Assembly: GCA_021157485.1 (NCBI GenBank)
Contig: JAGGWO010000222.1
Coordinates: 1 to 19,879, forward strand
Origin: Sulfurimonas sp.
Lineage (GTDB): Bacteria; Campylobacterota; Campylobacteria; Campylobacterales; Sulfurimonadaceae
Length of the DNA stretch: 19,879 bases
Reading direction: 5' to 3'
The notes below the pieces were generated by a model. It ran no database searches. It was not told where the DNA came from and saw only the letters and a program-made list of their open reading frames with translations. This document shows positions 1,422 through 16,468 of the stretch, one piece after another (positions within the stretch are counted from its first letter, which is position 1; the number at the start of each line of letters is the position of its first letter). The translations under genes and the position numbers were made by a program.

Positions 1422-1430
1422 AAACTAAAT

Positions 1431-2257: not shown

Positions 2258-2275
2258 AAAATATCAAGGTTTAAA

Positions 2276-3493
2276 ATGTTTAGAGTTTTTGTCATAACTT
2301 TACTTTTGTTATCAAGTCTGCTTAATGCAGGTATATTGCAAGAAGCTATTGATAATGCACCGGTAGGTTCTATTTTAAAATTGCCTGCTGGTGTTTATAA
2401 AGGTAATATTGTTATAAATAAGCCTCTTACAATTTTAGGTAAGGAAGATGGCGTAGTTATTGATGGAGAAAATAAAGGAACTGTTATTAAAATAACAAGT
2501 TCTTATGTAACTCTAAAGAATCTTAAAATTATAAACAGTGGTGAACTACATCATCAACTTGATGCAGCAATTACTGTAGAAAAAGCTAAACAGTGCGAAA
2601 TAAGTGATTGTATAATAGAGGATTGTCTATTTGGGATTGACCTGCAAATGGTAAACAACTCGATAATATCAAATAATTACATTACCTCAAAAGATGTGGA
2701 CTTAGGTTTAAGAGGTGATGGCTTAAGACTTTGGTATTCTAATGATAATGTAGTTAAAAAAAATAGTTTAATAAAATCGAGAGATATGGTTGTATGGTAC
2801 TCCCATGGAAATTTAATAGAAGAAAACTATGCTGAATATTGTAGATACTCCCTACATTTTATGTATGCTGGTAAGAATATGGTAAAAAACAATACTTACA
2901 AATTCAACTCTGTAGGTATATTTTTTATGTACTCACAAGACACTATAGCAACTGGAAATGTTATACAGAGTTCAATAGGTGCAACAGGTATGGGAATTGG
3001 TCTAAAAGATGTTTCAAACTTTACAATAAAAGACAATACAGTTATATATTGTGCACAGGGTCTATATATAGACAGATCACCTTTTGAACCTGGTACAAAC
3101 AACTGGATAACAGGTAATAAAGTTTTATATAATTCTGAAGCTATGCATTTTCATTCATTAAGTGAAAATAATATTATTAAAGATAATACTATTATGGGTA
3201 ATATTGAAGATATAGTTAACGATAGTAGAGGAAGCAAAACTAATGAAAATGAGATAGTAGGAAACTACTGGGATAATTATATTGGATTTGATAGAGATGG
3301 TGATAATATTGGAGACACTCCACATAAAGTGTTTCAATATGCAGATCAACTCTGGATATATAATCCTAATGTGAAATTTTTTTACGGAAGTCCTGTGATT
3401 TCATTGCTAAATTTTTTAGCAAAACTGGCTCCATTTACAAAACCAATCTTTTTACTTGAAGATGAAAAACCAAAAGTTAGGATAGAAGGATAA
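2276..3493 (+). CDS. nosD: NosD, periplasmic beta-helix copper-maturation protein
   Basis: A 405-residue protein with a Sec signal peptide (MFRVFVITLLLLSSLLNA). The body is made of CASH-type right-handed parallel beta-helix repeats with many N-N-x-I/V turns (for example IISNNYITS and MVKNNTYKF). Hallmarks of NosD are present: GDGLRLWYSNDN, RDMVVWYSHGN, RYSLHFMYAGKN, GLYIDRSPFEPG, and near the C-terminus GFDRDGDNIGD and FFYGSP. NosD works with the ABC transporter NosFY and the copper chaperone NosL in supplying the copper centres of NosZ in the periplasm. The gene starts 18 bases after nosB and ends 3 bases before nosG, so it is in the same operon. A second, diverged copy lies at 9343-10551; this copy keeps the conserved aromatic and basic residues and is taken as the orthodox NosD. 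Confidence 0.95.
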   Translation: MFRVFVITLLLLSSLLNAGILQEAIDNAPVGSILKLPAGVYKGNIVINKPLTILGKEDGVVIDGENKGTVIKITSSYVTLKNLKIINSGELHHQLDAAITVEKAKQCEISDCIIEDCLFGIDLQMVNNSIISNNYITSKDVDLGLRGDGLRLWYSNDNVVKKNSLIKSRDMVVWYSHGNLIEENYAEYCRYSLHFMYAGKNMVKNNTYKFNSVGIFFMYSQDTIATGNVIQSSIGATGMGIGLKDVSNFTIKDNTVIYCAQGLYIDRSPFEPGTNNWITGNKVLYNSEAMHFHSLSENNIIKDNTIMGNIEDIVNDSRGSKTNENEIVGNYWDNYIGFDRDGDNIGDTPHKVFQYADQLWIYNPNVKFFYGSPVISLLNFLAKLAPFTKPIFLLEDEKPKVRIEG

Positions 3494-3496
3494 AAT

Positions 3497-4237
3497 ATGG
3501 CTAAAGTACAAACAGATAGAAGAGATTTTGTTAAGTATTCCACTTTAGGTGTACTCGGACTTGTGCTAGGTGGTGGTATAATTTTCTCCCCTTACACACT
3601 AAGAGCTGAAAATAGATTACGCCCTCCTGGGGCAATGCCTGAAAAAGAGTTTTTAGCATTATGTATCAAGTGTGGTCAATGTCTTCAAGTTTGCCCATAC
3701 CACTCTATAGAATTAGCCGATATGGCAATGGGTCATGGAGAAGGAACTCCATATATAGATGCAAACGTAAGAGCATGTTACGCTTGTGAAGCAGTTCCTT
3801 GTGTCCTTGCTTGTCCAAGTGGTGCACTAGATCATAGCTGTGAAAAAGCTGAAGATATTAAAATGGGAATAGCAGTTTTAGAATTTCCTGATACATGTTT
3901 AGCTATGAGTAATACCCCTGTACCTAAGGGTTATAACGATAAAATGCATAAGTTTATTGATGGGGTAAGACATATAAACCCATTAGAAGATCAGCTGCTT
4001 GAAAAATTCGATAAATATGAAGGTGAGCAGTGTACTTTATGTGCAGATATGTGCCCAATACCGAACCCAATGGGTGCTATAGCAATGGTTCCTGATGCGA
4101 ATGGTGGTAATAAACCAGAAATTTACGATGGCTGTATTGGTTGTGGAGCATGTCAAGAAGTTTGTCCAACTTCCAAGCCTTCTATTGTAGTTAAACCTAG
4201 AGTTACCTATGATGAATATTATACAAATAAAAGTTAG
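3497..4237 (+). CDS. nosG: NosG, NapG-type periplasmic ferredoxin with four Fe-S clusters
   Basis: A 246-residue iron-sulfur protein. The N-terminus carries a twin-arginine signal (DRRDFVK at residues 7-13 followed by a hydrophobic stretch), so it is exported folded. Four cysteine clusters follow: C56-59-62-66 (CIKCGQCLQVCP), C94-97-102-106 (CYACEAVPCVLACP), C179-182-186 in a CP context (CTLCADMCP), and C213-216-219-223 (CIGCGACQEVCP). This is the NapG/MauM pattern of polyferredoxins. With the membrane partner NosH (5403-6308) it is thought to form a menaquinol dehydrogenase that feeds electrons toward the NosC cytochromes and NosZ in clade II organisms. A GAAGGAT ribosome binding site precedes the ATG, overlapping the end of nosD. 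Confidence 0.93.
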   Translation: MAKVQTDRRDFVKYSTLGVLGLVLGGGIIFSPYTLRAENRLRPPGAMPEKEFLALCIKCGQCLQVCPYHSIELADMAMGHGEGTPYIDANVRACYACEAVPCVLACPSGALDHSCEKAEDIKMGIAVLEFPDTCLAMSNTPVPKGYNDKMHKFIDGVRHINPLEDQLLEKFDKYEGEQCTLCADMCPIPNPMGAIAMVPDANGGNKPEIYDGCIGCGACQEVCPTSKPSIVVKPRVTYDEYYTNKS

Positions 4238-4245
4238 GAAATAAA

Positions 4246-4872
4246 ATGAAATTCAATACTGCAAACAAAGTGTCAACAGGTTTACTTCTAGCTTCATCAT
4301 TTTTCATACTCTCGCTTAGTGGATGTGGAGATAAAGCGGAAAACAAAACCGAGAAAAAAGCAACCGCTACAAACTCTACTCCACAGATTGAAGTTGTTAA
4401 AAATAAAAATGCACATGAGATAAAAGTAGCGGCTAAAAAAACCGACAAAGACCAAAGCAAGTCATACTACTATGATTATGGCGAAAAGGCTGAGTATTCT
4501 CAAGATGCTCAACCTGCAAACGAAGATGCATCTGTTAGAATTAGACCACGAACTAGTATAGATGCAAATATGAATGTAAGAAGCCCTTATGATGTAATAC
4601 AAGTATCTATGCTTGTAAATAAGCTTAGTAAAAAATTCATAGTCAAGTGTTCAGCATGTCATAATGACTATGCAAATGGAATCATTGGACCATCTTTGAT
4701 TGAAAGAGATTCTAACTATATTTATGAAAAAATTCAAGAATTTAAAAGTGGTAAAAAATCTAACCCATTAATGGATGATCTTATCCATATGATGAGTAAC
4801 AAAGAGATTCGACTGATGGCAGATGAGATCTATAAGTTTAACAAAGAAATAAATAAAATGAGGAATAAATAA
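4246..4872 (+). CDS. nosC1: NosC1, monohaem cytochrome c lipoprotein
   Basis: A 208-residue protein with a lipoprotein signal: a hydrophobic stretch ends in a lipobox LSGC near residue 27, followed by a lysine- and glutamate-rich linker. A single haem c site, CSACH (4648-4662), lies in the C-terminal half. Several methionines near the C-terminus (MDDLIHMMSNKEIRLM) could supply the sixth haem ligand. Position after nosG and before a second small cytochrome matches nosC1 of Wolinella. The proposed role is electron transfer from NosGH to NosC2 or to the haem domain of NosZ. The stop codon overlaps the ATG of nosC2 by one base (TAATG), so the two are translationally coupled. Confidence 0.85.
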   Translation: MKFNTANKVSTGLLLASSFFILSLSGCGDKAENKTEKKATATNSTPQIEVVKNKNAHEIKVAAKKTDKDQSKSYYYDYGEKAEYSQDAQPANEDASVRIRPRTSIDANMNVRSPYDVIQVSMLVNKLSKKFIVKCSACHNDYANGIIGPSLIERDSNYIYEKIQEFKSGKKSNPLMDDLIHMMSNKEIRLMADEIYKFNKEINKMRNK

Positions 4873-5372
4873 TGAAAAATATAATTGTAGGATTTTTTAC
4901 AATATTGATACTAGCTTTAATGGCATGGACTGCTTCTAATGGTGGTGCCTACAACGGTGGTGAACATGGTAAGGTTATTGCTGATATAGGAAATGGAAGA
5001 ACGGCAGAAGCTAAAGATAGTGAACCTGTAGACAAAAGCGATAGAGAAAAAGAAGATGAAGCACTTAATGCACTTAGAGAAAAAGCTGGTAATGTAGGTG
5101 CCTTTAAAGTAAGTGATGAGTACAAACGTAAATGTTCATCATGTCATGGTGTAAATGGTTCAGGCGAACAAAACGGTAAAAGACTTATGGGACCTAAACT
5201 ATTTGGACAAACTGCTGATGAAACTTATAAAAAACTTGATGATTTTAAAGCAGGTCGTAAAGAAAATATGATTATGAAAGGTCTCTTAATGAAACTAAAT
5301 AAAGATGACTTAAGAAGATTTGCTGATGAGATTGGAGAGTTTCCTGCTAGAGCAGAAGCACTTAAAAAATAG
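4872..5372 (+). CDS. nosC2: NosC2, membrane-anchored monohaem cytochrome c
   Basis: A 166-residue protein with one N-terminal hydrophobic segment (residues 4-20) that may be an uncleaved anchor or a signal peptide, since no lipobox is present. A charged linker rich in lysine and glutamate follows. One haem c site, CSSCH (5133-5147), is followed by GVNGSGEQNG and KRLMGPKLFG, typical of class I small cytochromes; C-terminal methionines (ENMIMKGLLMKL) could be the distal ligand. The C-terminal halves of NosC1 and NosC2 look related (ADEI motif, similar spacing), suggesting an old duplication. It would carry electrons from the NosGH side to NosZ. Confidence 0.85.
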   Translation: MKNIIVGFFTILILALMAWTASNGGAYNGGEHGKVIADIGNGRTAEAKDSEPVDKSDREKEDEALNALREKAGNVGAFKVSDEYKRKCSSCHGVNGSGEQNGKRLMGPKLFGQTADETYKKLDDFKAGRKENMIMKGLLMKLNKDDLRRFADEIGEFPARAEALKK

Positions 5373-5402
5373 AGTTACATTCTAATATAATAGGATAAAG
5401 AA

Positions 5403-6308
5403 ATGGATAAGTATAACAGTAGAGAAACCATAAAAAGAACAACCTTTTGGTCAACTTTTTTTGATAGAACAAAAGATGGAAAGAAAAAACTTAGCTATAG
5501 AATGAAAAGGTGGATACTTGTAATCTCTATCCACCTACTATTCTTCTTATCGTTTGCTATTGATATCCAAACTTTAGAAGGAACTCTAAATGGTTCAAGA
5601 TTTTTAGGTTTTCACCTCATAGATATATTTACAACTTTAGAGATGTTTATGGCAGAACACCATCTGCATATAAATATTATTATTGGAGTTAGTACCATTA
5701 CAGTTTTCTATCTTTTAGTTGGTGGTAGAAGTTACTGTGCCTGGGTGTGTCCTTATGGAATATTAAGTGAGATTGGTGAGAAATGGCATAATACATTGGT
5801 AGCTAAAAAAATCATAAAAGATAGAAATTTCGACCATCGTATAAAATACTTTTTTTGGGCAATATTTCTTATACTTTCTCTAACAAGTGGTTATCTTGTA
5901 TTTGAGTCTTTTAGTGTAGTTGGTATATTAAGTCGTGCAATAGCCTATGGTTGGAGTTTAGCTTTAGTATGGGTAGTTATTGTATTTGCTTTTGAAGTAT
6001 TTTTTGCTCGTCGTGCATGGTGTAGTTATATCTGCCCTATTGGAACAACTTATGGTATGATTGGTAAAGTTTCAGCTCTTAGAATCGAGTGGAATGATAA
6101 CTGCGATCATTGTATGGTATGTAGTGATGTATGTTTTGAAAATCAAGTTTTAGAGATTACTAAAGCAAAATATGATAAGCAAAGAGAAGAGAAAAATATC
6201 ACTCATGAGTATATAACCGGTGCAGATTGTACTTTATGTGGAAGATGTATCGATGTTTGTCATGCAGATGCACTTAAATTTGACTTCAGATTAAAAGGTT
6301 TAGTATAA
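5403..6308 (+). CDS. nosH: NosH, NapH-type membrane quinol dehydrogenase subunit
   Basis: A 301-residue polytopic membrane protein with about four transmembrane segments (residues 35-55, 88-107, 148-168, 182-202). Two CxxxCP motifs typical of NapH/NosR C-terminal domains are present: CAWVCP (C112, C116) and CSYICP (C207, C211). Two [4Fe-4S] ferredoxin motifs lie at the C-terminus: C234-237-240-244 and C276-279-282-286. In both, the usual proline after the last cysteine is replaced (CFENQ and CHADA). With NosG it should oxidise menaquinol and pass electrons to the periplasmic cytochromes. It begins 30 bases after nosC2 and ends 2 bases before nosF. Confidence 0.92.
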   Translation: MDKYNSRETIKRTTFWSTFFDRTKDGKKKLSYRMKRWILVISIHLLFFLSFAIDIQTLEGTLNGSRFLGFHLIDIFTTLEMFMAEHHLHINIIIGVSTITVFYLLVGGRSYCAWVCPYGILSEIGEKWHNTLVAKKIIKDRNFDHRIKYFFWAIFLILSLTSGYLVFESFSVVGILSRAIAYGWSLALVWVVIVFAFEVFFARRAWCSYICPIGTTYGMIGKVSALRIEWNDNCDHCMVCSDVCFENQVLEITKAKYDKQREEKNITHEYITGADCTLCGRCIDVCHADALKFDFRLKGLV

Positions 6309-6310
6309 AT

Positions 6311-6949
6311 ATGATAAAAGTTTCAAATCTAACTAAAAAGTTTGGTTCAAACACATCCCTTGACAATGTGAATTGTGAATTTAATAAAAATGAATCAATC
6401 GCTCTTATGGGTGCAAATGGTGCAGGAAAAACAACTCTGATACGCTCTATTCTTGGATACTACCATCCAAATGATGGAGAAGTACTAATTAATGGTATGA
6501 ATCCTATTAAAGAGCGTGTAAAAGTTTTAGAGAATATTAGTTTTGTTCCTCAACTTCCACCTCCAATTAAACTAAGTATTGATGAGTTAATGCAGTATAT
6601 AAGTGTTGGAGCTAAAGTTGATAGAGATTTAATCATGCACTATGCTAATGAGATGAAACTCGATGTTAGCGCCAACCTAAATAAATCATTTTTTAAGTTA
6701 AGTGGCGGGATGAAGCAAAAGCTACTTATCGCTATATCATTAGCAAAAAAAAGTGATATCATAATCTATGATGAACCAACAGCAAATCTTGACCCGAAAG
6801 CTAGAGATGATTTTTACAGGCTTCTCAAACAAAATGAAGATGAAAAAGTACTCCTCTTTGTTACTCACAGATTAGAAGAAGTAAAAGATTTAGTAAATAG
6901 ACAAATATATATGGACTTGGGGAAAATAGTTTCTGATGATAAAGTTTAA
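6311..6949 (+). CDS. nosF: NosF, ABC transporter ATPase for NosZ maturation
   Basis: A 212-residue ABC ATPase. Visible motifs are Walker A GANGAGKT (34-41), a Q-loop glutamine at 81, the signature LSGGM (130-134), Walker B IIIYDE (150-155) and the H-loop histidine at 186. It pairs with the permease NosY (7397-8224); together with NosD they form the NosDFY complex needed for the copper centres of N2O reductase. The protein is about one third shorter than NosF of Pseudomonas, lacking a C-terminal extension, which seems usual for this gene in Campylobacterota. Its last 14 bases overlap the following nosL gene. Confidence 0.93.
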   Translation: MIKVSNLTKKFGSNTSLDNVNCEFNKNESIALMGANGAGKTTLIRSILGYYHPNDGEVLINGMNPIKERVKVLENISFVPQLPPPIKLSIDELMQYISVGAKVDRDLIMHYANEMKLDVSANLNKSFFKLSGGMKQKLLIAISLAKKSDIIIYDEPTANLDPKARDDFYRLLKQNEDEKVLLFVTHRLEEVKDLVNRQIYMDLGKIVSDDKV

Positions 6950-7385
6950 AAATCTTTTTTTTATTCTTATTTTATCACTCTTAGTTATACTTAGTGCTTG
7001 TGATTCTTCTGTCGAAGAAACTGCAAAGGTTTGTCCTCAGTGTCATATGCCACTGCCTAAGTCAAACATTCATACATCGTTTATAAAAGGTAATTCTGCT
7101 ACAGAATACTTTGATGACATAGGATGTATGGTTTTGTGGATGAAAAAGAATCATATAGACTTGAACAGTGTTGATATAAAAGCTTTTTCAAATGATACAA
7201 AAAAATATATAGATGCCAAAAAAGCATTTTTTAAATTTAATGAAAAAACACCTATGAACTATGGCTTTTCAGCATATGAACATAGTCAAGAAAACAGCAT
7301 TAATTTTAATGAAGTCTATATGAAAATGTTAAGGGGCGAGCATATGGCAAACCCAAAAATTAGAAAACAGATATTAGGATATTAG
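6936..7385 (+). CDS. nosL: NosL-family copper-binding lipoprotein (copy 1)
   Basis: A 149-residue lipoprotein with lipobox LSAC (C22). Residues C33, C36 and M38 form CPQCHM, the CxxCxM copper-binding type motif of NosL. The family pattern FDDIGCMVLWMK and, near the C-terminus, TPMNYGFSAY is clear. NosL delivers Cu(I) to the NosDFY/NosZ maturation pathway on the outer face of a membrane. The ATG overlaps nosF by 14 bases, with GGGGA at 6919-6923 as the ribosome binding site. It closely resembles the protein at 10538-10981 (FDDIGCM-LW, MxYGFSA), which together form one of two NosL subtypes in this window. Confidence 0.85.
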   Translation: MIKFKNLFFILILSLLVILSACDSSVEETAKVCPQCHMPLPKSNIHTSFIKGNSATEYFDDIGCMVLWMKKNHIDLNSVDIKAFSNDTKKYIDAKKAFFKFNEKTPMNYGFSAYEHSQENSINFNEVYMKMLRGEHMANPKIRKQILGY

Positions 7386-7396
7386 GTGATAAAAAA

Positions 7397-8224
7397 ATGA
7401 AAAACTTATCTTTAATCGCATACTTAGATTTAAAAGAATCCATACGTGCAAAATGGTTTGTTGTGTACTCTCTTGTTTTTGGTGGGCTTATAGCACTATT
7501 TTTCATAGCAGGTGTTACAGAGTCTCAAGTTATGGGCTTTAGTGGGCTCAGTCGTCTCTTACTTATGTACATACAAATTACAATAGTAATTTTACCAATC
7601 TTTATACTAATAACAACAGTGAGGTCAATTTCTGGCGATAGAGATTCTCATGTATTAGAGTATATGCTCTCTTTTCCAATTTCACTTAAACAGTATTATT
7701 GGGGTAAAATTATAGGACGTTTTATCACGGTATACCTTCCAGTAATTTTTGCAATGATAATCGCAATAATTTATGGAGCATTCAAAGGTGCTTCAATTCC
7801 TTGGGATATATTCTTTTTATATACAGGACTCCTATTTGCTATGAGTGCTGCATTTTTAGGTATAGCTTTTTTTATCTCTTCATTTGTTAAATCATCTGAG
7901 GTAGCTCTTGGAATTGCATTTTTTATATGGATATTTTTACTTGCATTTATTGATATTGCACTTATATCACTAATGATGCAACAGAGATTTAACGAAGAGC
8001 TAATTATATTCATGGCAATGATAAACCCTATGGAAATATTCAGAGTTGCAGCTATTTCACTCTTTGATCCGGAACTGACTGTTATGGGTCCAGTTGCGTT
8101 TTATATACTTGACTCTATGAGTCAAACGGTATTTGTTTTACTATCTATAGGTTACCCTCTTGTGCTAGGATTACTCTTTGCATTTTTTGGTTATAAGATA
8201 TTTGAGAAAAAAGATTTAGTTTAA
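7397..8224 (+). CDS. nosY: NosY, ABC-2 type permease for NosZ maturation
   Basis: A 275-residue integral membrane protein with six predicted transmembrane segments. It has the ABC-2 permease pattern with an EYMLSFPISLKQYYWGKI segment after the second helix, which is the conserved cytoplasmic coupling region of NosY. With NosF and NosD it forms the NosDFY complex. Its exact substrate is debated, with sulfur species or mechanical work on NosD/NosL both proposed for the family. It lies 11 bases after nosL and is the last gene of the core nos operon; a 58-bp structured spacer follows before further NosL-related genes. Confidence 0.93.
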   Translation: MKNLSLIAYLDLKESIRAKWFVVYSLVFGGLIALFFIAGVTESQVMGFSGLSRLLLMYIQITIVILPIFILITTVRSISGDRDSHVLEYMLSFPISLKQYYWGKIIGRFITVYLPVIFAMIIAIIYGAFKGASIPWDIFFLYTGLLFAMSAAFLGIAFFISSFVKSSEVALGIAFFIWIFLLAFIDIALISLMMQQRFNEELIIFMAMINPMEIFRVAAISLFDPELTVMGPVAFYILDSMSQTVFVLLSIGYPLVLGLLFAFFGYKIFEKKDLV

Positions 8225-8234
8225 ACCACACTTA

Positions 8235-8269
8235 GGCTTTAGCCACGGTGGCATCGGCATTTAGTGCCA
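8235..8269. repeat. GC-rich run of small hairpins after nosY
   Basis: The spacer between nosY and the next gene is over half G+C in a genome about one third G+C. It holds three small inverted repeats in a row: GGCT-TT-AGCC (8235-8244), GCCAC-G-GTGGC (8242-8252) and GGCA-TTTAG-TGCC (8256-8268). No T-tract follows, so it is not a standard intrinsic terminator. It may stabilise or process the mRNA between the core operon and the extra genes, or be a remnant of a repeat element. Confidence 0.45.
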
Positions 8270-8282
8270 GAAAAGGAAAAAA

Positions 8283-8753
8283 ATGAAGAAAATATTTTTA
8301 GGAATTATTTTAGCATCAAGTCTGCTCTTTTCATTTGAGATGGATTACGATAAGAGTACAAAGTGTTTAGTGCGTCACATGAAAGTATATAAAGATCCTG
8401 CATGGGTTTCCAAAATAGAGCTAAATAATGGGAAAAAAGTATTTTTCTCGTCTCCAAAATCTATGTTTGAGTTTTACTTTAGACCAGGAAAATGGTTTGA
8501 TGTTGGTGTAAAAAACGAAGATGACTTCAAAAACATCCTTGTTACAGATTTTAAAACTCTCAAAGCAGTAAAAGCAAAAGGTGCCTTTTATATCTATGGT
8601 TCTAATGTAACTGGTCCTGCTGGTGATGATTTAATTCCATTTAATTCATATGCTGATGCTGAAGAGTTCTCTAAAAAACATAACGGTAAAAGAATACTTG
8701 GATTTAGAGATGTAAGTGACGCTCTAATCAGACTTATCAATGGGAGAATATAA
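8283..8753 (+). CDS. NosL-family protein with altered metal-binding motif
   Basis: A 156-residue protein with a Sec signal peptide (MKKIFLGIILASSLLFS) and no lipobox. It aligns along its length with the C-terminal half of the NosL protein at 12462-13139: KCLVRHMKVYKDPAW against KCPICGMFVYKYPKW, then FYIYGSN-TGPAGDDLIPF against FYVIGSDTYGPMGYELIGF, and GKRILGFRDV against GKKVIRFEDV. In this copy the CxxCxM motif reads C28-LV-R31-H32-M33, so the second cysteine is replaced and a histidine is added. The GPMG motif has become GPAG. Either metal binding is modified (Cys/His/Met) or the protein has another role in maturation. It is followed 2 bases later by the PAS gene, so the two are coupled. Confidence 0.75.
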   Translation: MKKIFLGIILASSLLFSFEMDYDKSTKCLVRHMKVYKDPAWVSKIELNNGKKVFFSSPKSMFEFYFRPGKWFDVGVKNEDDFKNILVTDFKTLKAVKAKGAFYIYGSNVTGPAGDDLIPFNSYADAEEFSKKHNGKRILGFRDVSDALIRLINGRI

Positions 8754-8755
8754 TT

Positions 8756-9280
8756 ATGACTAAACCTACACCTATAAATGAAGAGATACAACTGGACCCT
8801 AAACGTTATATAGTTAGTGAAACAGATGCTAAAGGTAAGATTACATACTGTAACGATTATTTTATGGAAGTATCTGGATATACAAATGAAGAACTTATAG
8901 GCAAGCCACATAATATTGTTCGACACCCAGATATGCCTAAAGTTGTATTCAAACTCCTTTGGGAGACTATTTCAGCAGGTAAAAACATAAATGCAGTTGT
9001 TAAAAACTTAGCTAAAGATGGTAGATACTACTGGATTTTTACTGAGTTTGAGATCAGAAAAGATACTGACACTGGTGAGATTATTGGCTACCACGCAGCA
9101 AGAAAGAGTATATCAAAACATGTAATTGAAATCATTGCAGATTTATATGCAGAGCTTCTTCAAATTGAAAAAGATGACTCTATTGAAGCTGCTGAAACTC
9201 ATCTTGTTAACTTCTTGAAAGAGAAAGGTGATGATATGGAATTTTCAAACATCATGGAAGAGATTCATAGATTTTACTAG
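8756..9280 (+). CDS. Stand-alone PAS-domain sensor, Aer/CetB-like
   Basis: A 174-residue cytoplasmic protein with no signal peptide or membrane segment. Residues about 17-122 form a PAS domain of the Aer type: YIVSETDAKGKITYCND, VSGYTNEELIGKPHNIVRHPDMP and DGRYYWI are characteristic. In Aer and CetB of Campylobacter this class binds FAD and senses redox state. The C-terminal 50 residues look helical and acidic and carry no output domain such as a kinase, GGDEF or methyl-accepting domain. It should therefore act through a partner, as CetB does with CetA, but no partner is encoded here. Position within the N2O-respiration genes suggests redox or energy taxis toward electron acceptors; this link is inferred. 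GGGAG before the ATG serves as ribosome binding site. Confidence 0.85.
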   Translation: MTKPTPINEEIQLDPKRYIVSETDAKGKITYCNDYFMEVSGYTNEELIGKPHNIVRHPDMPKVVFKLLWETISAGKNINAVVKNLAKDGRYYWIFTEFEIRKDTDTGEIIGYHAARKSISKHVIEIIADLYAELLQIEKDDSIEAAETHLVNFLKEKGDDMEFSNIMEEIHRFY

Positions 9281-9309
9281 ACCTACTAATATTACGTGCT
9301 AAAGCTACT

Positions 9310-9323
9310 AAAAGTTAACTTTT
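9310..9323. promoter_or_regulatory. 14-bp palindrome AAAAGTTAACTTTT before the second nosD gene
   Basis: A perfect palindrome centred on GTTAAC lies 19 bases before the ATG of the second nosD gene. It lacks the GC-rich stem of a terminator. It could be an operator or a weak mRNA hairpin; nothing else in the 62-bp spacer stands out except a possible -10 (TAATAT, 9287-9292). Confidence 0.3.
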
Positions 9324-9342
9324 TGAAAAAAAGAGGTAAAAG

Positions 9343-10551
9343 ATGAAGTTTTATTTACTACTTTTCGTTTTTGCCTCATACCTTGTTGCAAATCCTCTCC
9401 AAGAAGCTATCGACACTGCGACACCCTACTCCACTCTGAAACTACCATCTGGAACTTATAAAGGAAATATTACTATAAATAAACCGCTTACAATTATTGG
9501 TAAAGGTAAGGATGTAGTCATTCAAGGGAGTGGTAAAGGTAGTGTCATAACAATTACTAGCTCGCACGTAAATATTAAAAATCTAACTATCAGCAGTAGT
9601 GGTAGCAGAATGGACAGAATCGACGCTGGCATCTCTATAAAAAAAGCCAAACAGTGTGAAATAAGCAGTTGTAAAATTATTGATTGTCTTTATGGTATTG
9701 ATATGGATATGCTCAGTAATTCTGTAATTAAAAATAATTACATAACTTCTAAAAAATTTGACCTTACCCTAAGAGGTAATGCTCTAAAAATGTATTATTC
9801 AAATAATAATCTCATTGAAAACAATATGATTGAAAATACAAGAGATGTAACACTTAACTATTCAAATAATAATATTTTTAAAGCTAATATTTTTAAAAAT
9901 AATCGATTTGCAACACATGTAAGCCTAAGTCATAACAACACCTTTGATAAGAACACCTACCTCTATAATTCTGTTTCTATAATGGTAATGGGTGCAAAAG
10001 AGATGAAAGTCCTCAATAACACTATTAAAAGCTCTAAAGGTGCAGCAGGTATAGGTGTAGTAATTACTGGTGTTTCAAACTTTATATTTGAGCATAATAT
10101 TTTAAAGTTTAATGCCAAGGCTATATACATTGATGGACAAGAGAAGGCTCAAGGTATCAAAAGATATATAAATTATAATGAAATTTCTTATAATGGAGAG
10201 GCTTTACACTTTCACGCTAGTATAAAAGACAATACTATCACTCACAACAGAATATTTGGAAATATTGACGATGTTGTTAAAGATGTTGAAGGCAACTTTG
10301 CTCCTTCAAATATTGTAGAGTATAACTACTGGGATAGATATGCCGGTTTTGATAGAGATGGAGATAATATAGGAGACCATTCGCATCAAGTCTATCAATA
10401 TGCAGACCAGCTATGGCACTACAATAACAAAGTAAAATTCTTCTACGGAAGTCCGGTCATGACTCTGATGAATTTCTTATCAAATTTGGCTCCATTTGTA
10501 GAACCAAACTTAATTATGGAAGATGCAAAACCTATTTTTATTTCCCAATAA
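9343..10551 (+). CDS. Second NosD-like periplasmic beta-helix protein
   Basis: A 402-residue paralogue of NosD with its own signal peptide (MKFYLLLFVFASYLVA). The N-terminal cap (LKLPSGTYKGNITINKPLTI), the C-terminal cap (GFDRDGDNIGD, QYADQLWHYN) and the tail (KVKFFYGSPVMTLMNFL) match the NosD at 2276-3493 closely. The central coils do not: LRLWYSNDN becomes LKMYYSNNN, RDMVVWYSHGN becomes RDVTLNYSNNN, RYSLHFMYAGKN becomes RFATHVSLSHNN, and YIDRSPFEPG becomes YIDGQEKAQG. Conserved tryptophan, methionine and arginine residues are therefore lost in the middle of the helix. It is intact and has a good ribosome binding site (AAGAGG), so it is not a pseudogene by sequence. It may serve a different partner, perhaps one of the extra NosL proteins. 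Its end overlaps the end of the opposing nosL gene by 14 bases. Confidence 0.85.
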   Translation: MKFYLLLFVFASYLVANPLQEAIDTATPYSTLKLPSGTYKGNITINKPLTIIGKGKDVVIQGSGKGSVITITSSHVNIKNLTISSSGSRMDRIDAGISIKKAKQCEISSCKIIDCLYGIDMDMLSNSVIKNNYITSKKFDLTLRGNALKMYYSNNNLIENNMIENTRDVTLNYSNNNIFKANIFKNNRFATHVSLSHNNTFDKNTYLYNSVSIMVMGAKEMKVLNNTIKSSKGAAGIGVVITGVSNFIFEHNILKFNAKAIYIDGQEKAQGIKRYINYNEISYNGEALHFHASIKDNTITHNRIFGNIDDVVKDVEGNFAPSNIVEYNYWDRYAGFDRDGDNIGDHSHQVYQYADQLWHYNNKVKFFYGSPVMTLMNFLSNLAPFVEPNLIMEDAKPIFISQ

Positions 10552-10981
10552 TTAGAACTCTTTTTATAACTTCATCATAATCAACAATTTCTTGTCCATC
10601 TTTGATTGTATCTTTTGTTTTATGAGCTGAGAATCCATAAGCCATTGGAGTGATATTTTCAGTATCGTAAAACGCAGTTCTTGCGTTTATCCACTTACCT
10701 GTATTTACATCAGTAATCCATACAATTGCCTTATCTTTCCACTCTATATTCTCTTCTTTAAACCATAGAGCCATGCAACCTATATCATCAAACATATATG
10801 TTTTACCAGTTTTTGGATTTCTGACTTGAGTAGTGTTTTGTCTATCACTAACTACCATAACACATCTAGCACACATATCTCTATCCCAGTGAACCTCTGC
10901 AACATCAGTTGTAGATTTCTTCTCACAAGCTGAGAATGAAAAAACTAAAATACCAAGAATTAAAAACCTAAAATAATTCAA
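10538..10981 (-). CDS. nosL: NosL-family copper-binding lipoprotein (copy 2)
   Basis: A 147-residue lipoprotein with lipobox FSAC (C19). The motif MCARCVM (M36, C37, C40, M42) retains the full CxxCxM copper ligands. Family blocks FDDIGCMALWFKEE, WINARTAFYDTE and TPMAYGFSAH are clear. Among the four NosL-type proteins here it looks closest to orthodox NosL. It is the last gene of the - strand group, 17 bases after the permease gene, and converges on the second nosD. It is a probable Cu(I) chaperone for NosZ maturation, or it may act with the adjacent permease. Confidence 0.9.
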   Translation of the reverse strand: MNYFRFLILGILVFSFSACEKKSTTDVAEVHWDRDMCARCVMVVSDRQNTTQVRNPKTGKTYMFDDIGCMALWFKEENIEWKDKAIVWITDVNTGKWINARTAFYDTENITPMAYGFSAHKTKDTIKDGQEIVDYDEVIKRVLIIGK

Positions 10982-10998
10982 AAAAAACCTCCATATAT

Positions 10999-12174
10999 TT
11001 ATCTAATAACATCATCTGCTTCAAGAGTAGCTACTTTCCAAGAAGGAATAATTGTTGCGGCTACATAGATTGGAACACTCAAGAAAAAAACTAAAAATAG
11101 TGTTTGAAAATCTAATATAAAAGATATTTCAAACGTTGGTTTCAAGTCACTATATCCTATAAAAATATCTCTCAAAAGTGGTGCGTTGAAGATATATACA
11201 TAAGCCAAAGCTAGAATGACACCTAGAATATAAGCAAACAGTGAAAGTATCAAGCTCTCATAAAACTTTTCTTTAAGAACATCTTCTACTCTCCATCCAA
11301 TTGCTTTAAGTATTCCAACCTCTCTTTTTTGCTCACTGCTAAGTCCGCTCATTTTATCATAAATTATGATAAAAAAAGTAAAAATTGCAATTACAAACAG
11401 TGCTAAAAATATACCACTTTTATAGTTAAAAATATTCTCATAACTAAGCTTCATATCATCATTTGTAATTACTCTTGCATTTGGGAACATCTGCTCTATT
11501 TTCAGTGCAACTGTTCCTACCTCTTCTAGATTTGCAACCTTCACAACAATATCAGTAGCCTTTGATTCTTCGATACCAAATATCTCTCTTAGAGTATCTT
11601 TGGACATAACAATCATGTCATTTGACTCTAGTTCTATATCAGATTCAAACTGACCCAATATTTCCACTTTTTTTATCTTCCCATCTGGTTTTATAAAGTT
11701 AAAATAGTCTTTATAGTAACTGCTATTCATAATCTTTCTAACACCTGAACCAATAACCATACCAGAGCTATTAAGCTCATTTTTTTTGACAATGCCTTCA
11801 AGAGTATCACTATACTGCTCTTCAAATTCATCAATTCCAATTAAAGTGAAATTCACACCTGCATTTGCAAAGTAGTAGTAACCCCAAACTCTTGCATTTA
11901 CACTAGTAATTCCAGGAATATCAAGCAGTTTATCAGTAATAGAAATATCTACCTCAGTAACTCTTGAGGCTTTTGTTTGTTGAACTATTATCTGAGGAAG
12001 TGCATCAACAGTTGTATTTAGTTCATACTTTATAGAGTTAGTTATAAAAAATATAGAGGTTAAAAGAGCCGTAAGAAAAGTAAAAACAATAGTGATAAAA
12101 AGTGACTTATGTCCCTGTCTTATAATGGAACCAAGAGCATACTCTATAAGGTATACATTAATTTTACTACTCAT
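10999..12174 (-). CDS. FtsX/MacB-type ABC transporter permease, no ATPase alongside
   Basis: A 391-residue membrane protein. One N-terminal transmembrane segment (about residues 24-46) is followed by a periplasmic domain of the MacB_PCD type of about 200 residues. Three C-terminal segments follow (near 255-275, 308-332, 355-378). EQKREVGILKAIGW is the characteristic cytoplasmic loop, and the C-terminus ends PSWKVATLEADDVIR as in MacB/LolC relatives. Such permeases are mechanotransmitters or lipoprotein and peptide exporters driven by a LolD/MacB-like ATPase, normally encoded next door. None is present on either side; the only ATPase in the window is NosF. Its first 8 bases overlap the upstream gene, so it belongs with the flanking NosL genes. 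A role in lipoprotein or copper handling is inferred from context. Confidence 0.88.
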   Translation of the reverse strand: MSSKINVYLIEYALGSIIRQGHKSLFITIVFTFLTALLTSIFFITNSIKYELNTTVDALPQIIVQQTKASRVTEVDISITDKLLDIPGITSVNARVWGYYYFANAGVNFTLIGIDEFEEQYSDTLEGIVKKNELNSSGMVIGSGVRKIMNSSYYKDYFNFIKPDGKIKKVEILGQFESDIELESNDMIVMSKDTLREIFGIEESKATDIVVKVANLEEVGTVALKIEQMFPNARVITNDDMKLSYENIFNYKSGIFLALFVIAIFTFFIIIYDKMSGLSSEQKREVGILKAIGWRVEDVLKEKFYESLILSLFAYILGVILALAYVYIFNAPLLRDIFIGYSDLKPTFEISFILDFQTLFLVFFLSVPIYVAATIIPSWKVATLEADDVIR

Positions 12175-12469
12175 TAGTTTTACTCACTATTTTTGAATTT
12201 GCTATTACATATGTAGCACTATCATACTCTCTTAAACATCCATCAAGAGAGTATATATCTGATGTCATACTAAGACTTCTATGTCTGATGTAAGAGCTGT
12301 TTGATGAAAAAGCCAAGTCAGGCAGACCTGTTAAACCAACAAAAAGAACTTTTTTCTCTTTTGCATCTGCACTCATTGATTTTGAACTATTTAAGTACAG
12401 TACCTGAACAATTAAAATAAGACCAAGTAATGAAAAAAGATAAAAGGTGATTTTACTTTTTTTATTCAT
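12167..12469 (-). CDS. Small membrane-anchored protein of unknown function in the NosL group
   Basis: A 100-residue protein with one N-terminal hydrophobic segment (about residues 7-26) after a short lysine-rich start, so the rest probably lies in the periplasm. The soluble part contains TGLPDLAFSSNSSYIRHRSL and a single cysteine in SLDGCLREYDSATYVI. I do not recognise the family. The gene overlaps both neighbours by 8 bases (NosL upstream, permease downstream), a strong sign that it is real and made together with them. It could be an accessory subunit of the permease. Confidence 0.75.
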   Translation of the reverse strand: MNKKSKITFYLFSLLGLILIVQVLYLNSSKSMSADAKEKKVLFVGLTGLPDLAFSSNSSYIRHRSLSMTSDIYSLDGCLREYDSATYVIANSKIVSKTNE

Positions 12470-13139
12470 CTAATTTATATACTGTTTCTTTTGTAACATC
12501 TTCAAATCTTATGACTTTTTTACCACGGTGATCCATATAAAATGTTTTAGCATCAGCTTCATTTTTAAATCCTATAAGTTCATATCCCATAGGACCATAA
12601 GTATCACTTCCTATTACATAAAAAGCTTTAGTGGCATCTATTGTTTTTTGAGTGTACCAGTCCAGTATCAATATCTCTGTGATACCCTCTTTGTTGTCAA
12701 AGTAGTATTTAAACATATCTTTTATGCCATCAAAAGAGTAGTGTTTTTCACCATAAAAAATCTGTGTTGCCCATTTTGGATATTTATATACAAACATTCC
12801 ACATATTGGACATTTTTCACCTTTTTTAACTACTATATCTCTAAATTTTTTTTCTATATTTGAATCTCTTTTTTTATCCCAAAGATACAGAGAAACTGCT
12901 TCAAGATATTTTTGATTTAAAGGTTTACATAACTTCTGTGAAAGAATTTTTTCTTGCATCGATTCGTAAGTTTCATAGATTGATGGATTTATATCATTAC
13001 ATTTTTTAGAGTAGATTTTTTCGCCCATTGGATATATCTTTTTTTCTTTTATTGCGTCTGACATTTGGGGATAAGCAGACAGAGTTATGGAGGAAAAAAG
13101 CAGTGCAACTAGTGTTAACAAAATTTTATTTAAATGCAT
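12462..13139 (-). CDS. nosL: NosL-family protein with extra N-terminal domain
   Basis: A 225-residue protein with a Sec signal (MHLNKILLTLVALLFSSITLSA). The C-terminal half is NosL-like: C110, C113 and M115 in EKCPICGMFVYKYPKW, then FYVIGSDTYGPMGYELIGF. The N-terminal half (about 25-90) looks like a small class I cytochrome c that has lost its haem site: MGEKIYSKKCND, where a CxxCH would start, keeps only one cysteine (C47), and the end LNQKYLEAVSLYLW resembles the last helix of such cytochromes. A second cysteine (C71) could pair with C47. It is the first gene of a four-gene group; AGAAGG precedes the ATG. It would be a periplasmic copper chaperone; the cytochrome ancestry is my reading and needs a profile search. 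Confidence 0.85.
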   Translation of the reverse strand: MHLNKILLTLVALLFSSITLSAYPQMSDAIKEKKIYPMGEKIYSKKCNDINPSIYETYESMQEKILSQKLCKPLNQKYLEAVSLYLWDKKRDSNIEKKFRDIVVKKGEKCPICGMFVYKYPKWATQIFYGEKHYSFDGIKDMFKYYFDNKEGITEILILDWYTQKTIDATKAFYVIGSDTYGPMGYELIGFKNEADAKTFYMDHRGKKVIRFEDVTKETVYKLDE

Positions 13140-13168
13140 TTATTGACCTTCTCTTTTGATGAATAAAT

Positions 13169-13174
13169 ATTATC
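13169..13174 (-). promoter_or_regulatory. Possible -10 box for the NosL/permease group
   Basis: On the - strand, GATAAT within TAGATAAT lies 29 bases before the ATG of the gene starting at 13139, in a 55-bp spacer. The transcript would start near 13162. No clear -35 and no full FNR-type site are visible; only a half-site TTGAT (+ strand) is present. Weak but the best candidate in the gap. Confidence 0.35.
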
Positions 13175-13194
13175 TAAAAAGTGTTAAATTACAG

Positions 13195-13674
13195 TTAAGA
13201 TATTCGCAGTAGCATCAATCTTCTGACAAAGAGTACCAAAAGTGCAACAGCTAAGATTTTAAAATCTATTTCACTCGCTATATGAATGTTATGAAAGGTG
13301 TCACTTTGGGTTGCTTCAGCACCCATTGACTGCATTGCAAGAATTTTAGGAGCATAAACAGCACTAAACATTAAAGATGAAAACATTACTGTAATAGCTG
13401 CTCCAAAAGTAATAGCGTCACGCTGACCCATTTTATACATGATAGTCTCATAAAGTACTACAAACAGAGTCACAAAATAGAGCCAGAAAGAAAATCTATG
13501 AAAGATTTCTGCCATAATTTTTCCAGCATTATAATTATCTAACAACATCTCAAACAGAATTTTATCCGTATGAAAAACAACTGGTGCGACTAAAGCACCT
13601 AAGACAAGAACCCCTCCTAATGAGGCAGCTAAAATAAGTAAATAACTAAAATCTGCATATATGTTTCTTTTCAC
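13195..13674 (-). CDS. DUF4149-like membrane protein
   Basis: A 159-residue integral membrane protein with four hydrophobic segments (about 10-32, 60-80, 88-110, 135-153). The segment GALVAPVVFHTDK near residue 26 and the pattern of a helix ending YAPKILAMQ fit the DUF4149 / TMEM205-like family. Function of this family is not established in bacteria. It lies 10 bases after prmC and probably forms an operon with prmC and the M48 protease gene. It is separated from the NosL group by 55 bases. Confidence 0.75.
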   Translation of the reverse strand: MKRNIYADFSYLLILAASLGGVLVLGALVAPVVFHTDKILFEMLLDNYNAGKIMAEIFHRFSFWLYFVTLFVVLYETIMYKMGQRDAITFGAAITVMFSSLMFSAVYAPKILAMQSMGAEATQSDTFHNIHIASEIDFKILAVALLVLFVRRLMLLRIS

Positions 13675-13684
13675 TTTTGTACCT

Positions 13685-14515
13685 CTAAGTTCTTAGTGTA
13701 AAGCCTCTATCAAAGTCACTTAAGTCTTTATAGAACTCTAAATCTTTATAATTTTTATTTTCTAAATATTTCGTGATTTTACCCTTTTGGTCATAACCCA
13801 TCTCACAAGTAAAAAAGTTAATATTTCTCTTTAAGACTTCATCAAGAAGTTCATTAATGATCTCATCTCCAATAGTTCCGCCAAAAAGGGCATTCTGAGG
13901 TTCGTAAGCTAAGTTTGATTCTAAAGATTCATCATCTGCAATATATGGAGGGTTGGAAACTAAATAATCAATCTCTTCGCTTATTGGTTCAAGAAGTGAG
14001 CCTAAACGCAACTCAATTCTATCTTGGAGTCCAAACTTAACTATATTTCTCTTTGCAACTTCTATGGCCTTAAGTGAGATATCTACCGCTATAAACTTAG
14101 CATTTTTAAAATGCAATGCAAGCATGATAGAGATAATCCCACTTCCAACTCCAACTTCAACAAAAGTCATTACTGCGTTTTTATTTTCTACTCTTTTTAT
14201 AACTTCATCTATAAGTATTTCAGTCTCAGGACGAGGTATCAAGGCACCCTCATCTATATAAAACTCTTCACTGTAAAAACTTACACTGTTTGTTATATAC
14301 TCAAAAGGTTCATTTTTAGCTCTGCGCGCAGTCCACTCTAAAAGTTTTTCTATCTCTTGTACTTGAGTGTTTTGATTTGTAATGAGCCATAACTCATCTT
14401 TTTGCAGATGTGCCATTAAAAGAAGTTGAGCCTCACGTGAGGCTCTTGGGATATGTGGATTTAAAGTTGTAGTAATCTCTTTTAAAACATCTTTTACTAA
14501 ATTTGAGCTTCGCAT
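13685..14515 (-). CDS. prmC: Peptide chain release factor N5-glutamine methyltransferase
   Basis: A 276-residue S-adenosylmethionine-dependent methyltransferase that modifies the glutamine of the GGQ motif in release factors RF1 and RF2. The N-terminal helical domain (residues 1-75) is followed by the linker motif IPRPETE (93-99), the SAM-binding motif EVGVGSGIISI (120-130), VDISLKAIEVA (144-154) and the catalytic NPPY (188-191). The downstream YEPQNALFGG is the usual PrmC pattern. Length is normal. The start overlaps the end of the protease gene by 19 bases, indicating coupled expression. Confidence 0.95.
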   Translation of the reverse strand: MRSSNLVKDVLKEITTTLNPHIPRASREAQLLLMAHLQKDELWLITNQNTQVQEIEKLLEWTARRAKNEPFEYITNSVSFYSEEFYIDEGALIPRPETEILIDEVIKRVENKNAVMTFVEVGVGSGIISIMLALHFKNAKFIAVDISLKAIEVAKRNIVKFGLQDRIELRLGSLLEPISEEIDYLVSNPPYIADDESLESNLAYEPQNALFGGTIGDEIINELLDEVLKRNINFFTCEMGYDQKGKITKYLENKNYKDLEFYKDLSDFDRGFTLRT

Positions 14516-15756
14516 TTACCCTCTAAAGATGTTTGATCTGTATCTCCAACATCAACACCAAGCTCTTTTAGTCTCTCTAAAACCGGTGGATGCGTATAGT
14601 GAAAAAAGATATACAAAGGATGTGAAAGTGGAAAACTTTTGTTTTCAGTCACTAACTTTTGAAGTGCATTTGCAAGTTCTATTGCTCCGGCTGGACCACC
14701 AAGCTCACTTCCCATTTTATCTGCCGCATACTCATTATGTCTACTTACAATTCCCATGATTGGCATCATGACAAAGCCTAAAACTGGCATACATAAAAGC
14801 AGAAGTATCATCACTAAATAGGGCTCTTGGCTTAGTCCCATCTCTAAATAGAGTGACTCTGGTAAATTTCCAAATATTGCGAACATTACAAAAAGCATAC
14901 CGCCAACCAAAGCTATATTTTTATATATATCTCCATGTGCGAAGTGTCCTAGTTCATGTCCTAAAACTGCTAAAAGCTCTTTTGTTGTAAGTTTTTCTAT
15001 GAGAGTGTCAAAAAGAACAACTCTTTTTGCTTTTCCAAATCCACCAAAATATGCGTTTAGTCTCGCATCACGTTTTGAAGCATCACTTACAAATACACCT
15101 GAACTCACAAAACCAGTTTTATCCATAAGCTCTTTTATTTTATCATCTAACTCTTCATCTTTTAGTGGAGTCAATTTATCAAAGAATGTCGCACGAAACG
15201 CAGGGTAAAGCATATTAATTAAAATCACAACGGCAAATATAAATATAAAACTCCAAAGCCACCATAGAGTAAAGTTAACTATGATTTCATAGATTCCCCA
15301 TACAACTAAAGAACCAAAAACAAGAGTCATAACAAACGCAATAAGAGTATCTTTTATCCAAAGACCTAGAGTTGATTTGTTAAAACCAAACTCTTCATCT
15401 AGTACAAATTTTTCATAATATGAAAATGGTAGTGAAAGGATCGAGTTAACAACTAAAAATCCCATAACAATGGCTACATTCATTAAAGCTTCACTCTCTA
15501 AAAATATATTAGCTTGAAGCATAGATATACCAAAGCCCATCCAAGCTATAAAAAAGAGATAATCTACAAAAGAGTTCACAATTGATAACTTCTCTTTAGC
15601 AACGGCATAATTTCCAGCTTTTAAAAATTCTGATGCTGAGAGAAGAACCGGTGTTTTTCTTTTAGCTTGGTTTATATAACCTATCTGCATTACACTTGTA
15701 TATATAGAAACTAAGACGTATATAGTATAAACACCTACTATTACTGTTAACATCAC
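14497..15756 (-). CDS. M48-family membrane metalloprotease (Ste24/CAAX protease type)
   Basis: A 419-residue integral membrane protein. The zinc motif HELGH is at residues 267-271 within VLGHELGHFAHGD, and the third ligand is the glutamate of RHNEYAADKMG downstream. An N-terminal membrane region with several helices precedes the catalytic part, and a C-terminal HPLYIFFHYTHPPVLERL segment is typical of the Ste24-like M48 branch. Bacterial members are thought to take part in membrane protein quality control; a prenyl substrate is unlikely. AAGGTGGAG upstream of the ATG is a strong ribosome binding site. It leads the group with prmC and the DUF4149-like gene. Confidence 0.92.
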   Translation of the reverse strand: MMLTVIVGVYTIYVLVSIYTSVMQIGYINQAKRKTPVLLSASEFLKAGNYAVAKEKLSIVNSFVDYLFFIAWMGFGISMLQANIFLESEALMNVAIVMGFLVVNSILSLPFSYYEKFVLDEEFGFNKSTLGLWIKDTLIAFVMTLVFGSLVVWGIYEIIVNFTLWWLWSFIFIFAVVILINMLYPAFRATFFDKLTPLKDEELDDKIKELMDKTGFVSSGVFVSDASKRDARLNAYFGGFGKAKRVVLFDTLIEKLTTKELLAVLGHELGHFAHGDIYKNIALVGGMLFVMFAIFGNLPESLYLEMGLSQEPYLVMILLLLCMPVLGFVMMPIMGIVSRHNEYAADKMGSELGGPAGAIELANALQKLVTENKSFPLSHPLYIFFHYTHPPVLERLKELGVDVGDTDQTSLEGKCEAQI

Positions 15757-15790
15757 TCCACCTTATTTTTAATTTGAGAATTATAGCTAA

Positions 15791-16000
15791 TTATCTTATT
15801 GGAATACTCTTACTTTGAGGAACAACAGTAATCGAATCTTTAATATTAATAGCGTCATCTTTGTTATCATACACACTGTAAGAGATAGAGTAAATTATTC
15901 CCATAAGAAGACCGGCTAATATTACAGCCCAAACAACTTTTTTCTTCTCGCCTTTTAATGTGTTGTAGTCGCCTATATCTTCTAATCTTGGTTCACTCAT
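15791..16000 (-). CDS. Small single-pass membrane protein, unknown function
   Basis: A 69-residue protein beginning MSEPRLEDIGDYNTLKG. A longer frame begins at 16048, but AAAGGAT lies just upstream of the ATG at 16000 while nothing similar precedes the longer start, so the shorter form is preferred. One transmembrane segment (about residues 22-42, VVWAVILAGLLMGIIYSISYS) follows a charged cytoplasmic N-terminus; a short periplasmic tail follows. I do not recognise the family. The 138-bp region upstream holds two inverted repeats that may control it. Confidence 0.7.
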   Translation of the reverse strand: MSEPRLEDIGDYNTLKGEKKKVVWAVILAGLLMGIIYSISYSVYDNKDDAINIKDSITVVPQSKSIPIR

Positions 16001-16042
16001 AACATATCCTTTAATATTTTTTTTATAGAATATTAGCAGAAT

Positions 16043-16064
16043 TTGCATTGGATTTTCAGTGCAA
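16043..16064. repeat. Inverted repeat TTGCA...TGCAA upstream of the 69-residue protein gene
   Basis: Arms TTGCATTGG (16043-16051) and TCAGTGCAA (16056-16064) pair over 9 positions including two G-U pairs, with an ATTT loop. It lies just upstream of AT-rich -10 candidates for the - strand gene starting at 16000, a plausible operator position. No T-tract follows on either strand. Confidence 0.35.
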
Positions 16065-16075
16065 CATAAATTAGT

Positions 16076-16116
16076 TTGACGATTTAAGTATATTTTTTAC
16101 TTTATTTTATCGTCAA
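16076..16116. repeat. Two-part inverted repeat between the Dabb and 69-residue protein genes
   Basis: Outer arms TTGACGAT (16076-16083) and ATCGTCAA (16109-16116) are a perfect 8-bp match. Inner arms AAGTA (16086-16090) and TACTT (16098-16102) add a second stem. Neither strand has a T-run straight after the stem, so it is not a canonical terminator. It may be a weak terminator for the Dabb gene or a regulatory site. Confidence 0.45.
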
Positions 16117-16138
16117 TATTTAAGAGGTTTTTAAAACT

Positions 16139-16429
16139 TTATACCTCGTAATCTACCACCTTAGATTCACTAGTTACCTCTTTTATAAGTGAAACTACTT
16201 TTAAATGCTCTTCATGCACTGCATAAGCTTTTAAATCCTCTTTAGAGTCAAATGTCGAGTAAAGTGACAAGTCAAATGCTCTATCAGATTGATTAAAGTC
16301 TATTCCTACTTCTATTGACTTTAACTCATCAATTTTTGAAACTAGAGCGTTCAGCTTTTCCTCTACAATTTTCAGGTTTGACGCTCTGTTATCTTCTTTA
16401 AATTTAAACATTACAATATGTACTATCAT
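16139..16429 (-). CDS. Dabb-domain (stress-responsive A/B barrel) protein
   Basis: A 96-residue cytoplasmic protein matching the Dabb fold: MIVHIVMFKFKED at the start, a central helix KIVEEKLNALVSKI, SIEVGIDFNQS, FDLSLYSTFDSKEDLKAYAVHEEHLKV, and KVVDYEV at the end. Dabb proteins are dimeric ferredoxin-like alpha+beta barrels; bacterial members are mostly uncharacterised. AAAAAAGG precedes the ATG. It appears to be a single-gene unit, divergent from the small + strand gene at 16469. Confidence 0.85.
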   Translation of the reverse strand: MIVHIVMFKFKEDNRASNLKIVEEKLNALVSKIDELKSIEVGIDFNQSDRAFDLSLYSTFDSKEDLKAYAVHEEHLKVVSLIKEVTSESKVVDYEV

Positions 16430-16456
16430 TTTATACCTTTTTTAGTAGAAGTTTAG

Positions 16457-16462: not shown

Positions 16463-16468
16463 ACCTTT

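Follow-up and report, generated by a model that had tools for sequence, protein, structure and literature searches.

The window analysed here is a stretch of 19,879 nucleotides from Sulfurimonas sp. (assembly GCA_021157485.1, contig JAGGWO010000222.1, positions 1 to 19,879), a metagenome-assembled genome (MAG) of the Campylobacterales. It carries genes for NosD, NosF, and NosY, which serve the nitrous oxide reductase NosZ, and four genes for NosL-type proteins, designated LA, LB, LC, and LD (Table 1). The four genes span 6.2 kb, in agreement with the original prediction, which had counted four NosL-type genes within about 6 kb. LA and LB lie on the plus strand with nosF and nosY; LC and LD lie on the minus strand and flank the gene of a second ATP-binding cassette (ABC) permease, of the FtsX type. 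On balance, we read the window as a place where two copper-maturation machines are joined, the usual nos machine and a second, portable module. A more tentative proposal is that this module is an FtsX-class copper-insertion machine recruited separately to NosZ and to the sulfite reductase MccA, with LB as a nos-specific adaptor.

Table 1. Features of the window discussed in the text.
Feature	Position	Strand	Evidence and remarks
nosF, ABC ATPase of NosDFY	6311..6949	+	ABC_tran 92.6 bits; nos operon position; 43-90% identity in relatives
LA, divergent NosL-like lipoprotein	6936..7385	+	CPQCHM (CXXCXM) retained
nosY, ABC permease of NosDFY	7397..8224	+	ABC2_membrane_2 79.2 bits; 53-94% identity in Campylobacterota loci
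LB, NosL fold, copper motif lost (CLVRHM), without lipobox	8283..8753	+	PF05573 76.8 bits
PAS-domain protein within the nos cluster	8756-9280		74-87% identity in most related nos loci holding it
nosD2, second NosD, its end abutting LC	9343..10551	+	TIGR04247 348 bits (cut-off 300)
LC, clade II-type NosL lipoprotein, CARCVM (CXXCXM) retained	10538..10981	-	PF05573 20.4 bits
ftsX, ABC permease of FtsX type (MacB/LolCDE superfamily) in the second module	10999..12174	-	PF02687 47 bits (cut-off 25.5)
o100, 100-residue protein, hydrophobic N-terminus	12167..12469	-	In relatives also located between ftsX and LD
LD, NosL protein with extended N-terminus, without lipobox	12462..13139	-	PF05573 116.5 bits; CPICGM and GPMG retained
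Gene labelled DUF4149	13195..13674	-	Followed by prmC- and M48-like genes

Judged by their sequences, all four proteins are placed in the NosL superfamily, and they are assigned the NosL fold. At the curated cut-off of this Pfam family, LB and LD of the window were recognised, LC lay just under it, and LA gave no match. The earlier expectation that profile searches would place at least three of the four in the family thus failed at the Pfam cut-off alone, which takes in two, and held with family-level profiles and an LA model, which place all four. Within the families, PF05573 matched 37/37 LB, 40/40 LC, and 5/34 LA members at E ≤ 0.05, and LD passed the cut-off in 3/3 members scanned. LB retained the NosL sequence profile and matched the solved NosL structure 7og7 with an E-value of 4.8e-11.

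A tree of NosL domains (122 domain rows, 148 columns) was built by a quick method and contained many weak forks. LA and LC, together with six relatives from outside the phylum, were split from LB and LD with a support of 97. LC, the C-terminal LD domain, and the N-terminal domain of LD type each formed a single group, with supports of 96, 97, and 100; LB formed one group with a weak support of 72, and LA and its relatives (LAx) did so jointly (89). The four proteins therefore appear to belong to old, separate groups in this weakly resolved tree. The division into two subtypes, with one member of each on each strand, agrees with the deep split. Since the tree separates LA, LB, LC, and LD as distinct groups, the strand pairs do not look like a recent duplication, and the suggested duplication of a chaperone pair around one NosFY is not supported; the minus-strand pair flanks the second ABC permease, which in relatives is accompanied by an ATPase and a membrane protein, memX. 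The arrangement itself proved to be conserved in relatives, as had been anticipated.

Relatives of LD reach 381 aa, and the longer ones carry a second NosL domain (e.g., L002:4858-5994 and L011:5669-6805). The linker of these two-domain proteins holds one invariant single Cys and may resemble a cytochrome c without the haem motif. LD of the window is without the first NosL domain.

A published study (PMC6530538) describes the NosL motif CXM as strictly conserved and likely Cu(I)-binding, with the form CXXCXM in clade II, and one further Met as absolutely conserved. The CXM Cys and Met and the candidate second Met were retained in all aligned members of LA (34/34), LC (40/40), and LD (18/18). 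The first Cys of CXXCXM was present in 28/34 LA members, and LC kept CXXCXM, the Cys of FDDxGC, and the Met of TPM in 40/40. At the position of the CXM Cys, LB has Arg in 32, Thr in two, and Cys in three of the 37 members; its CXM Met is retained in 7/37 and its GPMG Met in 0/37. By these motifs LB is not classed as a copper chaperone. Since LB is without the CXM motif and the second Met, at most three of the four proteins look like Cu(I) carriers. The original proposal of a single copper-carrier relay, in which all four would act around NosFY, fits their common superfamily and their close spacing; it is very unlikely given the lost motif of LB, the FtsX-type permease among the four genes, and the occurrence of the module away from nos.

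LB follows nosY in nos loci and was found in 51 of the 53 fetched loci that hold nosY. A survey with the LB profile gave, among the matches listed, 72 short-frame matches (frame ≤210 aa), of which 54 lay within 20 kb of nosZ, and eight elsewhere in nosZ genomes. The other 10 came from genomes in which nosZ gave no match, and they probably include some LD-like proteins. Because the NosL fold is kept without the ligands, we infer that LB may act as an adaptor or lock rather than as a carrier. In one genome assembled as a single contig (G075, contig C1, about 2230026-2232795), LB, LA, and memX stand in a row without a nosZ match in the genome, and this row looks like a nos remnant.

The second module has, in many relatives, the order NosL–(o100)–ftsX–ATPase–memX–NosL. 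In the Pfam and NCBIfam scans o100 matched no family. In 27 of 28 related loci ftsX was accompanied by an FtsE/LolD-like ATPase; L051, the one locus without it, breaks off 112 bases past ftsX. The FtsX permease domain and the matching ATPase assign the pair to type VII ABC systems (MacB/LolCDE/FtsEX). memX, a Cys-rich membrane protein of 319 residues, follows the ATPase and is itself followed by an anchored NosL in many relatives. Five of its cysteines are invariant (C88, C168, C169, C246, and C249).

In the window, neither the ATPase nor memX lies between ftsX and LC, and the junction looks clean (ftsX stop, GGAGG, TTG start of LC). Both genes were found together on another contig of the same genome (C235), with 79% and 72% identity, respectively, between genes which we take to be mraY- and gpmI-like. 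A loss of the transporter from this genome was rejected on this ground: because the ATPase and memX sit on C235, all parts of the transporter are present on two separate contigs, provided that the MAG is correctly assembled. All seven other surveyed genomes of the genus with memX (G015, G047, G060, G073, G109, G119, and G139) have a NosL match 2.8–3.1 kb from memX, which points either to a split peculiar to the present genome or to an error of assembly.

The best NCBIfam match of the permease was lolCE (TIGR02212; 39.8/362 bits, E 2.6e-10, far under the cut-off). The best matches of the C235 ATPase were FtsE, a bacteriocin exporter, LolD (191/308 bits), and, lower down, MacB, all under the model cut-offs. 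Neither protein thus scores as a LolCDE equivalog. These matches, together with the lipoprotein-like appearance of LA and LC, favour the alternative that the permease and ATPase release lipoproteins in the manner of LolCDE, freeing LA and LC to reach the site of NosZ maturation, with the NosL proteins alone carrying copper. We consider this rather unlikely. Only 18/34 LA/LAx proteins match the lipobox pattern, and in the alignment several of the others start with a hydrophobic segment without Cys, which Lol-type extraction is not known to handle; memX and LD are also left unexplained.

It appears that the two anchored NosL types were exchanged. Of 52 loci that carry nosF together with nosY, 16 have only LC between the two genes, 20 have only LA, seven have both types, and nine have neither. 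Directly after memX (33 copies with a labelled neighbour) we found LC in 15, LA or LAx in 10, and neither in eight; in all nine copies linked to mcc operons LAx follows memX. In a published account, nosL adjoins nosY before the insertion (PMC4794192). Most simply, LC would be the usual NosL of nos and LA/LAx the module's own, with a swap of the two in Sulfurimonas-like genomes. In Sulfurospirillum the order is nosF-LC-o100-ftsX-ATPase-memX-LA-nosY, and our guess is that a block from LC to memX left an order of this type and re-entered elsewhere in permuted form. A nosD2-like gene accompanies LC in 17/68 fetched loci.

The co-occurrence of memX with nosZ was surveyed in a sample of 159 genomes from the order (≥85% completeness requested; the present genome, at 80%, was included). 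nosZ was found in 65 genomes and memX in 78: both in 49, nosZ only in 16, memX only in 29, and neither in 65. The association is significant by Fisher's test (p = 3e-8, uncorrected for kinship). Of the 91 memX matches, 18 had nosZ and 11 had mccA no more than 25 kb away, one match being in both counts; the chance expectation for one linked pair is about 2%. In two genomes (G131 and G141), nosZ and mccA each have a memX copy nearby, and a third copy lies elsewhere. A memX tree built by a quick method from 59 rows, in which nos-linked rows were chosen via LC and are over-represented, joined the nine mcc-linked copies in one clade (Shimodaira–Hasegawa-like approximate likelihood ratio test support 96) and required 13 label changes for the 28 nos-linked copies, at least nine of them on starred branches.

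The surroundings of memX in other genomes were read in 19 stretches, in eight more, and in two upstream extensions. A NosL-type gene was present in 14 of the 19 stretches. One stretch (L091) is a nos locus, and others lie at various further places, among them the five that are without a NosL-type gene. In six (L082, L083, L093, L094, L095, and L100) the gene order places the module beside DUF4149-, prmC-, and M48-like genes, with nos genes absent except for LC once. The same neighbours adjoin LD in the window; their names are presumptive. The 29 genomes with memX and without nosZ, the stretches without a NosL-type gene, and the pairing of an FtsX permease with an FtsE/MacB-like ATPase would suit a MacB-like copper or thiol efflux or stress system that guards copper-enzyme loci instead of loading them. 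We regard such a function as unlikely. No outer-membrane channel or membrane-fusion gene was recognised in the operons, the unlabelled neighbours of which were not systematically annotated, and several NosL proteins with separate module copies beside two copper reductases fit loading better.

The second of these reductases is encoded by operons which we read as mcc, several of which have the module directly downstream. In five of them (L102, L103, L107, L108, and L110) the stretch includes the first operon gene, which encodes 669–698 residues with seven CXXCH motifs and one CX15CH; by these haem motifs and the adjoining mccBCD/ccsA-type genes the product is assigned to MccA; no family model names the mccA-like gene of the five stretches. 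For the sulfite reductase of Wolinella, a CX15CH site is mentioned in PMC6976685, and PMC7558416 counts the MccA-type enzyme among cuproenzymes. The module follows a CcsB-like gene (163/188 bits with the CcsB model). The operon genes presumably encode an isomerase of the FKBP type, subunits of the ferredoxin and NrfD types, and the CcsB-like haem lyase. One locus (L087 in G019) holds mccC-, mccD-, and ccsA-like genes in a genome without an mccA match and was counted as mcc-linked in the trees. With the L108 protein as query, the 159 genomes yielded 17 mccA-like genes, 12 close and five distant. Eleven of the 12 close genes have memX at 9.4–12.7 kb, and the twelfth is at a contig end. For the mccABCD-ccsA1 operon, with MccA as a haem c-copper sulfite reductase, the cited source is Hermann et al. 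(2015). A NosL-like MccL has reportedly been discussed for Wolinella; it would lower the novelty of the mcc part.

Both enzymes bear haem (clade II NosZ has a haem c domain, and MccA is octahaem), and memX with FtsX might serve the disulfide or haem chemistry of such reductases, with NosL proteins accompanying them as the enzymes also hold copper. The invariant cysteines of memX, the position of the module after the CcsB-like gene, and the copies without an adjoining NosL agree with this, as does the source name of one memX homologue (P0056), which starts 'Vitamin K epoxide reductas'. The CPFC and CC motifs of memX only resemble those of VKOR/DsbB-type proteins. We hold it to be highly improbable: the Pfam scans of 31 memX members gave no VKOR, the Pfam and PDB matches listed included no VKOR or DsbB, an absence which is weak evidence, and a NosL-type gene accompanies memX in most stretches.

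Several observations weigh against a portable copper-insertion module. N2O reduction does not generally depend on the module, as 16/65 nosZ genomes are without memX. At the 25-kb limit, 63/91 memX matches, many of these on short contigs, are near neither enzyme, and all five distant mccA-like genes (47–49% identity) are without memX on their contigs. A NosL-type gene is absent from five of the 19 memX stretches (L084, L085, L088, L089, and L092), and one of the five genomes (G020) has no LA-type match at all; such copies speak for the lipoprotein-release and efflux alternatives. memX has no match in Pfam or NCBIfam and no convincing one in the PDB, and the operon split is known from one MAG of 249 contigs and 80% completeness. 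FtsX-type permeases typically transport lipids, lipoproteins, peptides, or signals, and metals are not known as their usual cargo.

Among the closest known systems, the NosDFYL complex (PF05573; PDB 7osf and 7znq; NosL alone 7og7) shares a NosL fold bearing CXXCXM and GPMG, an ABC transporter, and a periplasmic copper enzyme. The window differs from it in having four NosL-superfamily proteins of old, separate groups, one of which is ligand-less, and in having a further ABC permease, of the FtsX type, with an unnamed membrane protein. MacB, LolCDE, and FtsEX share the FtsX permease and the FtsE/LolD-like ATPase, whereas the partners here are NosL proteins and memX; we know of no member of that group tied to copper loading. 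The mccABCD-ccsA1 operon has a module copy and NosL proteins downstream and serves a copper enzyme different from NosZ. In Sulfurospirillum cavolei UCH003 (PMC4794192; locus L050) the gene order hypothetical protein, ABC permease, ATPase, hypothetical protein, hypothetical protein corresponds to o100, ftsX, ATPase, memX, and LA. Its authors left these five as additional predicted genes; added here are the recognition of the last as a NosL protein, the occurrence of the module in mcc operons, and its wide spread. This account aside, our literature search found no paper on the module as such. PMC6242987 reports a NosL family protein as more abundant in fermenting Sulfurospirillum. Shewanella SirEFG was rejected as a parallel, being described in PMC6976685 as a haem lyase and not an ABC transporter.

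The same genome encodes three further NosL-type proteins of 232, 213, and 180 residues (L075:1780-2475, L076:6197-6835, and L081:1772-2311). On contig C141 it also holds a gene for a protein of 919 residues (L074:9415-12171) that combines a NapH-like ferredoxin part with a NosL domain. The neighbours of this gene encode a second ferredoxin-type protein, a small membrane protein, and a TonB-dependent receptor, and the locus is perhaps one of metal uptake. At least eight NosL-type proteins are thus present in this one MAG.

In the proposed mechanism, the first machine would consist of NosD, NosF, NosY, and a lipoprotein NosL, with the ligand-less LB as its nos-dedicated adaptor. The second module would comprise LD, o100, the FtsX-type permease, the FtsE/LolD-type ATPase, memX, and a membrane-anchored NosL; in the present genome the ATPase and memX lie on another contig, and the anchored types LA and LC appear to be exchanged. 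By analogy with NosDFYL and MacB, ATP hydrolysis in the cytoplasm would move the periplasmic part of FtsX. This part might pass Cu(I) between LD and the anchored NosL and then to the periplasmic copper enzyme, NosZ here and MccA elsewhere. memX may supply or reduce copper at the membrane through its five invariant cysteines. One membrane-bound and one soluble putative carrier per transporter is a plausible arrangement. The module, with its putative anchored and secreted carriers, would go with whichever periplasmic copper reductase a given cell employs.

The route of copper to the CuZ site is a main gap in the knowledge of how N2O is destroyed, and clade II NosZ bacteria are considered important sinks. 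A NosL without ligands predicts a non-carrier role for a member of this family, a question for structural work. If the proposal is true, copper insertion into periplasmic reductases would share one exchangeable engine, with a sister copy serving MccA.

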